A DNA stretch of 64,000 nt from Phormidium tenue FACHB-1050 (GTDB taxonomy: Bacteria > Cyanobacteriota > Cyanobacteriia > Pseudanabaenales > Pseudanabaenaceae). The notes beneath the pieces were generated by a model. It was given only the letters and a program-made list of their open reading frames with translations. It was not told where the DNA came from and searched no databases. The translations under genes were made by a program, and so were the position numbers. The stretch covers positions 1 to 64,000 of the forward strand of contig NZ_JACJQY010000009.1 in assembly GCF_014696925.1 (NCBI RefSeq), given 5' to 3'. Positions 29,664-43,243 of this stretch are shown here, one piece after another; the stretch's first letter is position 1; each line of letters opens with the position of its first letter.

Positions 29664-32600
29664 CTAGCGAGTTTTGAAATTAGACAAGGACTGCTGAAGT
29701 TCTCCAGAATAACCTCGTGTAGCTTTGATAAACTTAGATACTTCTGAAGAAGAAGCAAGCGTTCTCTTAGCCATATGCGAAATGTCATTCATCAAGTTAG
29801 CAACCCCTTCCGATGTCTGGGCTTGGGAAGTCGTAGCCTCAGCGATCACCACCATTAATCCATCAATTTGCTGGGAGATTCGGGCAATTTGTTGCAGGCT
29901 ATCCTTAGCAGTAATCGCTAAGGCATTACTCTCTGATATTTGAGTACTACCAGAATCAACCACCGCCATCACAGCATTAGTCTCACTTTGAATATTACTG
30001 AGCAGGCTTTCCACTTCTTTAGTCGCCGCAACTGAACGCGCAGCCAGTTCCCCCACTTCTTCAGCAACTAATACAAATCCCTGATTAGTATCAGTTGATC
30101 GGGATGCTTCCAGTGTGGCATTGATAGCTAGAAAGTTGGTTTTAATAGCAATTTCATTAATTGAAGAAATTGCTTTAGCAATTTTTTGAGACACAACCCC
30201 CAAATGCTTGACGCGCTTAGCCGTTGTGGAGATTGTGTTTTGCAATTCTCCCACCTTGGACATCACCGCATCAATCGAGCGATCGCTCTCAGATAATTTT
30301 TCTGATACGAGTTGTGATGATTTCACTACTTGCTGACTATTATTGACAATTTTCGTTGCAGATAGCTTAGACATCTGCATTGTGGTTAGCGATCGCGTCA
30401 CGGTATCGACCTGTCTCTGAGAGACACTCGCAAGATTCATGATCGCCTGTTCATTTTGACCAAGGGAGAAATTAACTTGGTTAGCAGAGGATTTAACTTG
30501 GCTAACAATATTTTGCAAGCCCCGAATGACATCATCAAAAAATATGGCAACATTCGCCAAACTACCATCAACCGACTGAGTGGAAACCGTAAGATCTCCA
30601 TCAGTTAAAGCTTGGATATCTTTGAGCATTTGCGTCAACTGCCTCTGGATGTCTTCTTTCTGCTGGCGATAGCTCTCAACCTCAGCATGGCGCTGTACCA
30701 TCTCCGCCCGTACTTTCTTACCTAAATACAAGATATTCTCATCGGATAAATCGGTATCTTGAACTTCACGTTTTTCTTCTCTCGCAAGTTTTGCCAAGAC
30801 TTTAAACAACTTCACTACCTGTAACTGTAAGTCTTGCTTTTCTTGTTCTTGCTTTTGCATCATCGTCTGGAATTGTTCAGACATTTTATTAATGCTTAAG
30901 GAAATGTCTGACAACTCGTCATTTCCTTCCACACTCAATGCCCCGAAGCTGACAGCAGCCTTTCCTCGTCTAAGATCTCGTAAAGCAGCCTGAATATCTT
31001 TAAGTCTAGTACTAAGATTTCTCGACAAAGCATAGGCGATCGCGGCGACGAGCAAAGGCGTAGCCGCAATACCAATACCAATCACCAACAGTAAATTTTG
31101 ATTACCTGCGATCGCCTTAGTTTTGTCTACTGTCGTTAATACATCCCAAGTCAACAGGTCAGAGGTCTGCATAGCAGGCACAGGGGCATAGGCAAGCAGT
31201 TGCCCATTGCGATCGCTCTTGACAGTATCTTGGACACCAGAGGACTGGGCCGTTCGCAGATCAGGGAGCATTGCAAAATTTGTTAACGCATCTTCACCAA
31301 CTGTGACAGGTTGAGAACTAGCAATATATTTGTTAGCGCTATCAACTATATAAAAATTTCTATTCTCATTACCATTGTTACGTTCATTGGTTAAATCATT
31401 TACCAATTTTTTTACAGGAATCTCCACCTGCAAAATCAGGGTAACTTTTTGGGAAACAGAACTCTTGATTGACCTAGATGCATAAAAATGAACCCCATCT
31501 TTCCCTGCCACGGGATTGCTAAACAATACATTATCCACAGAACTTACTTTACTGAGGATACTAGGGTTAAGAGTTTGGAGGGTTTTCGATTGGCTTGACT
31601 GAGCGATTAACTCTCCATTAGTGCTAAACAACGCAATGCTGGTGTAGTCAGGATAAGCTTGACCATAGAGATTTAACCGATTAGTCAACTGCTGCTTATA
31701 TTGACGTTGCTGAGCAATTGGCATTGCGGCAAGAGGATTAGTTACCTTGGGATCGGCGGACTTTAGCAAAGTATTCTGTCCGACTTCAGTCGAAACCAGC
31801 AATTTTTGCAACACTTCCACACCATTAGTCTGCTGATTTAAAAAATTTCTGGTCGCATTTGCTAAAGCGATCGCATCCGATTGCTGGGCTTGTTTGACCT
31901 TACTTAATAACAAACCATCACCCACTTGGTAAGCCGTTACACCCAAAATAATCGCAGGAACCGTCGCGACTAAAGCACCCCACAAAGTAATTTTTTGGCT
32001 GACACTAGAAAATTTAAAAATGTCCTCCAATGCGATCGCCGAAGCTCCATTTTTTCCATTAACCCTACTATACTGAGCAGCATTTTGAGAATCCATCCCC
32101 CAACCCAAAAACACTGACTCTACAGGTGGAAATTCAATTTTTTGTTTATTATGCTGGCTTACCTGCTGAATATTGGAGATCGTCTCATTCAAGATCGAAG
32201 AATCCGCCTTGCCCGTTACATCTTCCTCTAGATCCTCATCTCTAACCATTATATTCTCGACATCTCCAACTATCAGAATCGGCTCCTCTAGCAGAAGATC
32301 TTGAGGAGTAGTTGTTTCTTCGAGTTCTTGCTGAGGCTCCTTAAATAAAGCAGCGATCGCAGGTGGAGGTGGAATTACCCCATTGCCGTTAACCTGAAGC
32401 TTTCCAGAAACTTTTGGCTTGTCAGGCACATTAGCAGAAGCCCCTATTACAGTCAGTTCACTTGCTGTTGAGTCATCATGGTCGAGAATATAGGAAATAC
32501 TACCATCGCCAAATGTGCTTTTTAATTTTGCACCAAGATTGCTAGACTCTAACTGCAAAGCTCGGTAGTTAGCTTCTTGAGCCTTATCAGCATAACTAGT

Positions 32601-32951
32601 TTCTTTGTGATTAGGGCTATTAATAGAACCTATATCTTTTGGGTGATTATTATTTGGGCTATTATTTTGACTACTATTTTGAGAAATACTAGCCAACTTA
32701 TTTTGGATTTGAGCAAGCGAAGTACTTGCAAGATCAAGCAAATCTGGATCATCCGTAAGAGTTAATACCTGTTGATATTGCACCTTGGCATACTCAATCT
32801 TACCTGCCTTTCGGAAGGTTGCACCTAACCAAATATGCAGTTTGGGATTGCGAGGGTCCTCATACAACAATTCTGAGAACTGTTGCATCGCCTCTTCATA
32901 CCGACCCTCTGCATAAGAGTGTAGAGCCGCCTGATACTGCGCTGTCATCAT
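29664..32951 (-). CDS. Methyl-accepting chemotaxis protein with N-terminal TPR
   Basis: This receptor has 1095 residues. It begins with two TPR-like units (YQAALHSYAEGRYEEAMQQF; KLHIWLGATFRKAGKIEYAK), then a long Ser/Asn-rich linker. A first span lies near residue 325-345, followed by a double-Cache-like sensor and a second span near 610-635. HAMP and a coiled coil precede a signalling tip reading IKTNFLAINATLEASRS and TDTNQGFVLVAEEVGELAAR. The canonical EAARAGE part is changed to EASRSTD, and VVADEVR to LVAEEVG. The tip is therefore divergent and may pair with the divergent CheA encoded just downstream. Confidence 0.9.
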   Translation of the reverse strand: MMTAQYQAALHSYAEGRYEEAMQQFSELLYEDPRNPKLHIWLGATFRKAGKIEYAKVQYQQVLTLTDDPDLLDLASTSLAQIQNKLASISQNSSQNNSPNNNHPKDIGSINSPNHKETSYADKAQEANYRALQLESSNLGAKLKSTFGDGSISYILDHDDSTASELTVIGASANVPDKPKVSGKLQVNGNGVIPPPPAIAALFKEPQQELEETTTPQDLLLEEPILIVGDVENIMVRDEDLEEDVTGKADSSILNETISNIQQVSQHNKQKIEFPPVESVFLGWGMDSQNAAQYSRVNGKNGASAIALEDIFKFSSVSQKITLWGALVATVPAIILGVTAYQVGDGLLLSKVKQAQQSDAIALANATRNFLNQQTNGVEVLQKLLVSTEVGQNTLLKSADPKVTNPLAAMPIAQQRQYKQQLTNRLNLYGQAYPDYTSIALFSTNGELIAQSSQSKTLQTLNPSILSKVSSVDNVLFSNPVAGKDGVHFYASRSIKSSVSQKVTLILQVEIPVKKLVNDLTNERNNGNENRNFYIVDSANKYIASSQPVTVGEDALTNFAMLPDLRTAQSSGVQDTVKSDRNGQLLAYAPVPAMQTSDLLTWDVLTTVDKTKAIAGNQNLLLVIGIGIAATPLLVAAIAYALSRNLSTRLKDIQAALRDLRRGKAAVSFGALSVEGNDELSDISLSINKMSEQFQTMMQKQEQEKQDLQLQVVKLFKVLAKLAREEKREVQDTDLSDENILYLGKKVRAEMVQRHAEVESYRQQKEDIQRQLTQMLKDIQALTDGDLTVSTQSVDGSLANVAIFFDDVIRGLQNIVSQVKSSANQVNFSLGQNEQAIMNLASVSQRQVDTVTRSLTTMQMSKLSATKIVNNSQQVVKSSQLVSEKLSESDRSIDAVMSKVGELQNTISTTAKRVKHLGVVSQKIAKAISSINEIAIKTNFLAINATLEASRSTDTNQGFVLVAEEVGELAARSVAATKEVESLLSNIQSETNAVMAVVDSGSTQISESNALAITAKDSLQQIARISQQIDGLMVVIAEATTSQAQTSEGVANLMNDISHMAKRTLASSSEVSKFIKATRGYSGELQQSLSNFKTR

Positions 32952-33062
32952 GATCGTCCCTGTATGAAAATACGTCCTTGTTTCAAGAAGGAGGCTTTAA
33001 GTCTCGACAAGTCTCCTGATAAATAATTAAACGCATTTATATGTAGATCCTCTAGCGCCATT

Positions 33063-33094
33063 TTGCTTGTGTTTACCAAAAAGAGTGCTATAAT
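33063..33094 (+). promoter_or_regulatory. Predicted promoter for the deoxyhypusine-synthase-like gene
   Basis: A perfect TATAAT at 33089-33094 is preceded by TTGCTT/TTGTGT about 16-20 bp upstream. A transcript starting near 33101 would have a leader of about 470 nt before the coding start at 33571. Confidence 0.5.
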
Positions 33095-33159
33095 ATTCAA
33101 GGATTTGTCGCACTTAGCTAAATAGAAATTGAAAAAACTGGTTTTATTGCTTGGATGTG

Positions 33160-33322
33160 ATTGGCTCCTCAACCTAAAGTTGGGTGAAAGACGCGAGTCT
33201 GATCCTACTCTTTCTTGGGATGATGCCTGTGAAGGACCTAGTATGTTCCGATCGACCTTCTAACTATCAGGGTTGTAACCACCGTTAACAACCTGGGTCG
33301 ATCGCTTCTCACCATAGAGAAG
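33160..33322 (+). ncRNA. Structured leader RNA or small RNA of unknown class
   Basis: Several stems stack in a short span. CAAC/GTTG lies near 33170-33183. AGAC-GCGA-GTCT (about 33189-33200) has a GNRA tetraloop. A nested pair follows: CGATCGACC (33249-33257) with GGTCGATCG (33296-33304), enclosing GGTTGT/ACAACC. A CTTCTC/GAGAAG hairpin ends at 33322. The arrangement is far more ordered than the neighbouring leader. I do not recognise a known riboswitch core in it. It could be a cis-regulatory leader of the downstream gene or a free small RNA. Confidence 0.45.
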
Positions 33323-33570
33323 ATTAAATATTTTCAAAACTGAATAAGCGGTTAAAAACCTCTGGCTAATAGAGATTTTTGGCGTGTGATGTTTCAAATC
33401 AGCAATATCTATCTTTTGAATGATAGTTACTGTCAATCCTGAAACATTCGTCATCGCGGAAAAAACTTTCTAGGTCATAGGCGTGCGATTCTGCTTGTTC
33501 TGTTATGGAACTCTGCTCAAATTTTTCTTGCATACATCTACAACACATAACATCTAGGACAAACAGAATC

Positions 33571-34632
33571 ATGAAACGCGAACTACTTAAACAGACCGTT
33601 GAGCACATCGACATCAAAGCTTTTGATGTAGTCGGATTGGTTGATGCAATGGCTAACACCGCTTTTCAAGGTAGAAACCTTGGACGTGCGGCTCATATCT
33701 ATGACGATATGATCAAGGATAAAGATTGCGCGATCATCCTGTGTTTGGCAGGTTCTTTATTTAGTGCGGGACTTAAGGGAGTTGTCTACGATCTCATCGC
33801 CAACAACATGGTAGACATGATTGTCTCTACAGGCGCAAACATCGTTGACCAAGACTTCTTTGAAGCCCTCGGATTTCGTCACTATGTCGGTGATACCTTT
33901 GCTGATGACACAGTACTCCGCGAAAATGCGATTGATCGCATCTATGACACCTACATCGACGAAGACGAGTTGCGCGTTTGCGACATGACGATCGCTGAAA
34001 TTGCCAACTCTCTTCCTCCTCGCCCTTACTCTTCTCGCGAGTTCATCCATGAAATGGGTGCATACCTCGATAAGAATGCTAAGAACCGCCACTCAGTCGT
34101 TTTGGCAGCTTACGAGCATCAAGTTCCCATCTTCGTTCCTGCCTTCAGCGATTGTTCCGCAGGTTTCGGCTTAGTCCATCATCAGTGGTTCTCTCCTGAA
34201 GAGCATGTCAGCATCGACTCTGTACGCGACTTCCGCGAATTGACTCAGTGCAAGTTGGCAAGTCCTCACACTGGGCTATTCATGATCGGTGGTGGTGTTC
34301 CTAAGAACTTCGCTCAAGATACCGTGGTTGCGGCTGAGTTGCTTGGTTTCGAGGCAGCAATGCACAAGTATGCAGTTCAAATCACTGTTGCTGACGAGCG
34401 TGATGGTGCTCTATCTGGTTCGACTTTGAAGGAAGCACATTCTTGGGGCAAGGTGGATATTGTCCAAGAGCAAATGGTTTACTCCGAAGCCACTGTAGCG
34501 CTGCCCTTGATTGCAGGCTATGTCTACGGCAAGAAGAACTGGTGTGATCGCGCTCCTCGTCAATTGGCTCAAGTATTCAACAAGCCATCTGTTGCTACTT
34601 TTAGTAGTATTCCTGCACCCGTAGGCGTGTAA
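33571..34632 (+). CDS. Deoxyhypusine synthase-like protein
   Basis: From the ATG at 33571 the product has 353 residues. It is of the deoxyhypusine-synthase family: FDVVGLVDAMANTAFQGRNLGRA, then CAIILCLAGSLFSAGLKGVV and the NAD-binding-like DMIVSTGANIVDQDFFEALGF. Bacteria lack eIF5A, and their homologues make polyamines such as homospermidine or act on agmatine-type substrates; which one applies here cannot be read from sequence. The frame is open upstream to 33505, but MKRELLKQTVEHID is the conserved start. Two strong hairpins follow the stop codon. Confidence 0.88.
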   Translation: MKRELLKQTVEHIDIKAFDVVGLVDAMANTAFQGRNLGRAAHIYDDMIKDKDCAIILCLAGSLFSAGLKGVVYDLIANNMVDMIVSTGANIVDQDFFEALGFRHYVGDTFADDTVLRENAIDRIYDTYIDEDELRVCDMTIAEIANSLPPRPYSSREFIHEMGAYLDKNAKNRHSVVLAAYEHQVPIFVPAFSDCSAGFGLVHHQWFSPEEHVSIDSVRDFRELTQCKLASPHTGLFMIGGGVPKNFAQDTVVAAELLGFEAAMHKYAVQITVADERDGALSGSTLKEAHSWGKVDIVQEQMVYSEATVALPLIAGYVYGKKNWCDRAPRQLAQVFNKPSVATFSSIPAPVGV

Positions 34633-34636
34633 AAAA

Positions 34637-34725
34637 AGTAAATGGGGGGCGCTTTGCGCTCCCCCATTTACTAAAACCCCAGAGAGAGTTGCGGCGCTTT
34701 GCGCCGCAACTCTCTCTGGGGTTTT
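34637..34725. terminator. Two tandem hairpins after the deoxyhypusine-synthase-like gene
   Basis: The first (34637-34672) pairs AGTAAATGGGGG with CCCCCATTTACT around GCGC-TTT-GCGC. The second (34673-34725) pairs AAAACCCCAGAGAGAGTTGC with its complement and again has a GGCGCTTTGCGCC tip. The second belongs to the AAACCC/GGGTTT hairpin class. Confidence 0.7.
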
Positions 34726-43203: not shown

Positions 43204-43243
43204 TATTTTCTCCAGCGCTTTGCGCTCTCATTAAAAACAAATA

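Follow-up and report, generated by a model that had tools for sequence, protein, structure and literature searches.

The locus examined here raises a simple question: what does a leader of about 470 nt do in front of a deoxyhypusine-synthase-like gene in Phormidium tenue FACHB-1050? The window, meaning the whole stretch of DNA that was analysed, comprises 64,000 nucleotides (contig NZ_JACJQY010000009.1, positions 1 to 64,000, forward strand), and all coordinates refer to it. The original prediction read positions 33101-33570 as a long structured leader behind a TATAAT promoter, with nested stems, a GNRA tetraloop hairpin and a third hairpin, and considered a ligand switch of the polyamine or guanidine type conceivable. 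To our knowledge, little is known about the control of homospermidine synthesis enzymes in Cyanobacteria. A 2018 study reportedly found that homospermidine is made in Anabaena via a DHS homologue. The polyamine-type enzyme expected downstream of the leader is indeed encoded there, as its domain and subfamily matches attest:

33571-34632, + strand: enzyme gene of the DHS family, PRK02492 type (PF01916, 330.2 bits; NF002699, 593.4 bits against a cut-off of 500)

33554-33559, + strand: CTAGGA, likely Shine-Dalgarno region of the enzyme gene (CATCTAGG in 19/19 Pseudanabaena alignment rows)

The PRK02492 subfamily is agmatine-coupling; a passage of PMC10981699 describes caldomycin synthase as a Thermus enzyme that joins two agmatines. 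No tRNA or tmRNA was found in the 64-kb window. The divergent neighbour (29664-32951, - strand) encodes 1095 residues with weak TPR and HAMP matches and a clear MCP signalling domain. The 11-mer GCGCTTTGCGC, found at 34649-34659, 34694-34704 and 43215-43225 (3 copies in the window vs 0.02 expected), is the central part of strong inverted repeats, and such repeats sit just 3' of the enzyme gene. With 235 copies genome-wide (119 + 116) against 0 for the reversed pattern, it is a dispersed palindromic repeat.

The first element of the leader is an open reading frame, which contains a conserved core:

33129-33263, + strand: leader-peptide ORF with UUG start, 44 codons and stop TAA at 33261-33263 (translation, codon-position differences, profile matches)

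33162-33242, + strand: conserved 27-codon core, residues 12-38, W...DPTLSWDDACEGPS (invariant sites in 102 distinct cores)

From TTG at 33129 to TAA at 33263 the ORF reads LKKLVLLLGCDWLLNLKLGERRESDPTLSWDDACEGPSMFRSTF, and the consensus of its core is W-x-L-x-x-K-L-x-x-R/K-R-x-x-D-P-x-L-S-W-x-D-x-C-E-[G/A]-P-S. Among 23 distinct Pseudanabaena cores, the differences at the three codon positions numbered 231, 232 and 1718, and mean dN over these cores was 0.032 vs a dS of 0.613 (pairs 2-25% apart). A wider, pattern-based core set was obtained by dropping 14 rows that did not fit and merging the rest to 96 rows with 91 distinct cores; pN/pS over these 91 was 0.27 in the ORF frame, and the two alternative frames gave 1.46 and 1.57. 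In 81/96 rows the ORF opens with TTG and then a Lys or Asn codon; 4 rows have GTG and 11 a start of another form.

Of the ten sites that showed no change in the 96-row set, eight are prescribed by the core pattern used to build it. In a recount of 102 distinct cores with no pattern filter, W1, L3, L7, R11, P15, C23, E24 and P26 were invariant (102/102), with the reservation that part of the loci came from a pattern search fixing S18, W19, D21, C23, E24, G/A25, P26 and S27, the remainder from profile or DNA searches, and that here, as in all our counts, related sequences are treated as separate. W19 was the same in 98/102 cores and changed in 4, Ser27 was the same in 101/102, and Ser18 was changed in 1, Asp14 in 6 and Asp21 in 3. 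All four codons are in use for Pro15 and six each for Arg11 and Leu3. Ser27 is encoded by AGT in 101/102 cores, a sign of an added nucleotide constraint at the end of the ORF. By these comparisons the ORF is under strong selection at the protein level; it is almost certainly protein-coding, and we infer that it is translated in vivo. Searches of Pfam and NCBIfam (E up to 10) gave no match for the peptide; with no model in either collection, the region is therefore easily read as a non-coding leader, as it was in the original prediction. A GNRA hairpin is present at 33190-33199 (GAC-GCGA-GTC), but it sits within ORF codons, and as an RNA element it was rejected, being found only inside coding triplets.

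The make-up of the core also bears on attenuation by tRNA charging, in which a shortage of arginine, from which agmatine is made, would delay ribosomes at the Arg codons of the ORF. Arg and Lys are frequent at core positions 9-11, and Arg11 is invariant while using six codons, yet there are few Arg codons and no long run of them, and the invariant residues are mostly W, L, P, C and E and reach to the end of the ORF. We regard this explanation as very improbable.

How closely the ORF is tied to the enzyme gene was assessed at three scales. Leader DNA was detected in 33/58 genomes, with 26/26 in Pseudanabaena (the genus of the window), 6/9 in other members of the family and 1/23 outside it. A peptide profile built from 23 peptides and searched against 388 genomes of the class (E <= 0.01) gave 143 matches in 139/388 genomes. 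Strong matches (E <= 1.5e-12) numbered 139, in 137/388 genomes, and the four at E 0.004-0.01 look like chance. DHS-family genes occur in 186/388 genomes of the class, including 134/137 with a strong peptide match, and 52/186 enzyme-bearing genomes have no strong match. A same-strand DHS-family gene is preceded by 135/139 strong matches: among the DHS domains listed, at least 121/139 have one downstream on the same strand, 141-841 nt off; one more was paired with a DHS-family gene from a separate search; and 13/15 further regions hold such a gene, two of them in part only. The four strong matches without the enzyme lie at contig ends (G006, G321, G043) or on a contig whose continuing sequence looks non-cyanobacterial by eye (G248). 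A pattern scan of 84,980 genomes yielded 96 confirmed relatives, of which 80/96 are listed, all from cyanobacteria. In 78 of those 80 a DHS-family gene follows at 58-808 nt, a distance taken up to where the query begins, which in PRK00770-type genes falls about 50 nt inside the gene; the other two are cut by contig ends. No relatives of the peptide were found in 23 upstream regions of enzyme genes without the ORF (20 regions, one of them 307 nt long, and a further three), and eight pattern stretches in viral contigs yielded 0 confirmed relatives.

The peptide also precedes a second target subfamily, PRK00770, a homospermidine biosynthesis protein (579 bits) with about 34% identity to the PRK02492 enzyme. 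Of the 78 listed pairs, 28 involve an enzyme of the PRK02492 type and 50 one of the PRK00770 type. In two genomes with both enzymes, G076 and G175, each gene has a peptide ORF of its own and the two ORFs are clearly different, an arrangement that favours action in cis. Among distinct peptides preceding PRK00770, 29/30 have Arg at core position 9, where those preceding PRK02492 mostly have Glu, Asp or Lys; at position 20 the PRK00770 peptides carry Ala, Val, Thr or Ile and the PRK02492 peptides Asp, Tyr or His. By genome comparison, the position before a DHS-family gene is thus near-exclusive, and the leader very likely controls the enzyme gene in cis.

These data also weigh on a small protein that would act in trans from the same operon, for example as a subunit of the DHS-family enzyme or as its antizyme-like inhibitor, the hairpins then being an mRNA stability or processing element. 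Conservation over 27 residues beside the same enzyme family, with selection at the protein level in 4095 core pairs, would suit such a protein. However, in G076 and G175 both enzymes have retained an ORF of their own, and no strong match lies away from the enzyme gene save at contig ends or on the doubtful contig. The conserved start is the weak TTG, and both the AGT at Ser27 (101/102) and the placement of the stop codon in a covarying stem, described below, point to RNA at the end of the ORF. We consider a trans-acting protein unlikely.

Upstream of the ORF lies a promoter element shared by most leaders:

33086-33094, + strand: extended -10 promoter element TGCTATAAT (TGnTAnnnT in leaders; transcript start expected near 33101)

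TGnTAnnnT occurs 36-60 nt 5' of the peptide start in 73/95 leaders, most commonly at 43 nt, whereas mononucleotide shuffles gave 4.2 on average and 11 at most; the next two upstream 25-nt stretches gave 3 and 0. Comparison of leaders thus marks the element as conserved. The predicted TATAAT survives as part of this extended -10, but its -35 match is missing, because a two-hexamer promoter scan of 32900-33700 returned no match. With the extended -10 at 33086-33094, the predicted start near 33101 is therefore plausible, and transcription would begin upstream of the hairpins and not beyond 33322. Further upstream, TAGCGCCATTTTGCTTGTGTTTA (33053-33079) is almost invariant in Pseudanabaena and is possibly a regulator site.

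The end of the ORF runs into a set of RNA stems:

33249-33257, + strand: P1 5' arm CGATCGACC, first three bases CGA in the window (alignment, covariation)

33258-33269, + strand: bulge with conserved UAACU, UGUAACU in most relatives; the window stop codon lies inside it

33270-33276, + strand: P2 5' arm (alignment, covariation, fold)

33288-33294, + strand: P2 3' arm (alignment, covariation, fold)

33296-33304, + strand: P1 3' arm GGTCGATCG (alignment, covariation, fold)

33305-33322, + strand: P3 hairpin CTTCTC-ACCATA-GAGAAG (fold; conserved in the genus alignment)

33336-33348, + strand: conserved tail AAAACTGAATAAG / AACTGAATA after P3 (Pseudanabaena alignment)

By inspection, long leaders share the 3' order P1, bulge UGUAACU-nn-A, P2, variable apical loop, P3 and a tail like AACUGAAUA, and other leaders carry a tail-like AACTgAATA. 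The minimum-energy fold of 33249-33348 (-31.9 kcal/mol, z -5.77, 0/200 shuffles as good) contains both the nested stems at 33249-33304 and the third hairpin ending at 33322, in agreement with the original prediction. The whole 470-nt leader folds at z -5.23. The description as a structured leader holds for the stems at 33249-33322 but not for 33129-33263, which is coding; the coding stretch 33129-33248 folds at z -1.34, with 20/200 shuffles as good.

In order to assess covariation, P1 and P2 were extracted from 72/96 rows, giving 49 distinct leaders; the 24 missed rows are compact leaders, diverged ones and some with a hairpin but with the anchor missing. Paired cells made up 98.1% vs 89.8% with shuffled partners (0/500 shuffles reach this), a share inflated by the purine/pyrimidine pattern through which the 3' strand was found, which does not force the choice of partner. 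Cells with changes on both sides numbered 84 vs 28.4 when shuffled, and the covariation score was 0.382 vs 0.212 (0/500 reach in both cases), in shuffles that ignore the relatedness of the leaders. Sliding the partner by 1-3 columns left at most 46.5% paired. Two weaker measures were 9 pairs with both-side changes vs 7.4 shuffled (61/500 reach) and 20 further pair types vs 17.7 (9/500 reach). Both stems thus covary among the leaders.

The 5' arm of P1 overlaps the last codons of the ORF. In 42/49 distinct leaders P1 opens with the in-frame stop UGA, which pairs with A in 32 and with G in 10. Seven leaders, six of them from Pseudanabaena, have a P1 that begins with CGA, so that the ORF reads through, and there the partner is always G (C-G, 7/7); in the window the ORF continues to a TAA 12 nt past the CGA, inside the bulge. 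The bulge motif was found at 86/204 peptide loci in its strict form and 111/204 in its loose form, compared with 0/23 and 1/23 upstream regions of enzyme genes without the peptide. CCYAGU and the bulge ACU..AGG are a possible pair, both sides of which are nearly fixed. P3 is terminator-like in 11/49 leaders, where 30 approximate shuffles gave 1.9 on average and never more than 6, and no terminator was found at P3 in the window. The enzyme gene of the window starts 307 nt past the stop of the peptide ORF, and the spacer from the hairpins to the gene is unconserved, with the stretch of about 33350-33520 little conserved in the genus.

Not all relatives have this arrangement. Compact leaders occur before a PRK02492-type gene in Nostoc, Argonema, Gloeomargaritaceae, G076, G175 and G228, with the gene 58-84 nt past the ORF. 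P1-P3 were not seen in the compact leaders inspected, and the peptide is still present there. In Calothrix brevissima (L190), 233 nt stand right after the ORF vs 58 nt in three leaders of Nostoc and Desmonostoc (L207, L209, L223); the extra length is possibly an inserted repeat.

Whether the leader is a riboswitch made of P1, the UGUAACU bulge and P2, with the ORF as a side feature, can be judged from these results. Covarying stems around a conserved bulge, the fold at z -5.77 and the polyamine gene downstream would fit such a switch. Against it, the peptide is kept in compact leaders in which no stems are visible, and the strict bulge motif is lacking from all 23 peptide-less upstream regions. 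No match to any of 4227 Rfam families was found at gathering score in the window, which agrees with the earlier statement that no known riboswitch core is recognised, and the leader searched at E <= 10 gave one chance-level match (E 8.1). Moreover, P1 would be open whenever a ribosome terminates, because the stem overlaps the stop codon. We hold the riboswitch to be quite improbable. The original prediction was sound in part: a control element is well supported, being conserved, covarying, promoter-proximal and near-exclusive to the DHS family. Its most widely kept part, however, is a peptide that is probably translated, so that an RNA switch binding a ligand does not describe its kind best.

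The ORF and P1-P3 could also be a separate small transcription unit that ends after P3, with the enzyme promoter in the spacer and only a neighbourhood link between the two. The unconserved spacer and the U-run that follows P3 in some lineages (11/49) would agree with this, but the 58-84 nt between ORF and gene in compact leaders leave little room for a promoter, and the link holds across two enzyme subfamilies. A separate unit is, in our judgement, highly unlikely.

Our preferred reading, which we consider reasonably probable, is that the leader is a cis-acting leader-peptide attenuator of the polyamine synthase gene. A promoter near 33090 would give an mRNA whose first ORF, from UUG at 33129, encodes the 44-residue peptide. 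A ribosome on the last codons would cover the 5' arm of P1 and block it, and P1 and P2 would fold after its departure; thus RNA structure would report how long the ribosome dwells on the final codons and relay this to the downstream gene. The conserved stretch covers 27 positions, with 6 residues between it and the stop in the window and 2 in most relatives. A span of 27 residues is close to the capacity of the ribosomal exit tunnel. During a ribosome's stay at the ORF end, conserved residues 12-38 of 44 would therefore occupy the tunnel, where a metabolite-responsive pause of the nascent chain would be a natural sensor. The nascent peptide would pause or arrest the ribosome on a metabolite of the arginine-agmatine-homospermidine pathway; that it senses a metabolite at all we put at about an even chance. 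Both enzymes are named for homospermidine-type products, so that the ligand should be common to both routes, and arginine, agmatine, putrescine and homospermidine are candidates; a polyamine, agmatine or guanidine ligand is possible. We infer the arrest, its ligand, its sign and its output. Several observations count against the attenuator: the unconserved spacer, the terminator-like P3 in only 11/49 leaders, the failure of Shine-Dalgarno pairing in Pseudanabaena, and the 52/186 enzyme genomes without a strong peptide match. In addition, the peptide types differ at several sites by enzyme, so that one ligand may or may not serve both.

The sign of the response is suggested by compact leaders of one Gloeomargaritaceae genus, in which the last codons CCU AGU CC pair with GGACUAGG, overlapping the AGGAGG of the enzyme gene. 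Watson-Crick runs of 8-10 were found in 6/6 leaders tested from this genus, and 0-6 of 2000 shuffles each reach them; a seventh leader (L234), nearly identical to one of the six, was left out of the test. In that genus, a ribosome stalled on these codons would leave the start of the enzyme gene free. Because of this pairing we lean tentatively, with somewhat less than even confidence, towards arrest as the ON state of the gene. The pairing is absent in G105, from another genus of Gloeomargaritaceae, and a run of at least 6 with the Shine-Dalgarno region was seen in only one of 38 scanned window-type leaders, itself from the pairing genus. A pairing of CCUAG in the ORF with CUAGG before the gene, possible in 12/19 Pseudanabaena rows (CCT), was dropped: 6 rows have CCC and 1 has CCG with CATCTAGG unchanged, so there is no compensation.

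More broadly, one family of nascent peptides with a stop-codon hairpin may serve as a polyamine-pathway sensor across Cyanobacteria, governing PRK02492 and PRK00770 genes, staying with each and having residues tuned to the enzyme type (e.g. core positions 9 and 20); we rate this possibility a little short of even. Leader peptides that sense metabolites have mostly been described in enterobacteria and a small number of other groups. The putative leader peptide described here occurs in Cyanobacteria, is conserved over many families and stands before homospermidine synthesis enzymes. Its core, the stop-codon stem and the two-enzyme genomes offer clean handles on ligand, arrest site and output. 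No earlier report of it was found in the literature searched, which mostly excluded subscription papers, so one may exist. In the main text of PMC5126843, which deals with small proteins of cyanobacteria, neither 'polyamine' nor 'homospermidine' occurs.

Among known systems, the polyamine and guanidine riboswitches of Rfam have a similar gene context, but none gave a meaningful match in the window or the leader. The arrest peptides of the RAPP/RGPP type (ApdA, ApdP, ApcA) and SecM likewise come from a small uORF and have a short C-terminal motif with [A/G]-P; the motif here, C-E-[A/G]-P-S, has no Arg before it and no second Pro. A RAPP-like arrest peptide was accordingly rejected, the C-terminal R-[A/G]-P-P being replaced by E-[G/A]-P-S, with Pro for G/A in 2/102 cores. 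A passage of PMC12992588 reports RGPP/RAPP uORFs as absent in Cyanobacteriota. As outlined in part of PMC8429421, SpeFL responds to ornithine and TnaC to tryptophan, each through arrest at termination. They share with our case a short uORF with a conserved peptide before an amine- or amino-acid-related operon, and to their arrest at termination corresponds an ORF end that overlaps a putative control structure. Here, phylum and target enzyme are different, there are two target subfamilies, the start is UUG, and both arrest and ligand are putative. The odc1 motif (uORF-25-1) of alpha-proteobacteria, according to a section of PMC8632094, combines a UUG-started uORF of 11 residues with an RNA structure before ornithine decarboxylase, and is alike in placing a UUG-started conserved uORF with conserved RNA structure before a polyamine gene. 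In that account its structure lies mostly upstream of the uORF and the start codons are 2 nt apart; the window locus, with 44 codons, a gene 307 nt past the stop and a downstream structure, falls outside this definition. Where odc1 encodes 11 residues, the cyanobacterial leader encodes 44, places its structure after the ORF and stands 58 to several hundred nt from a gene of the DHS family.
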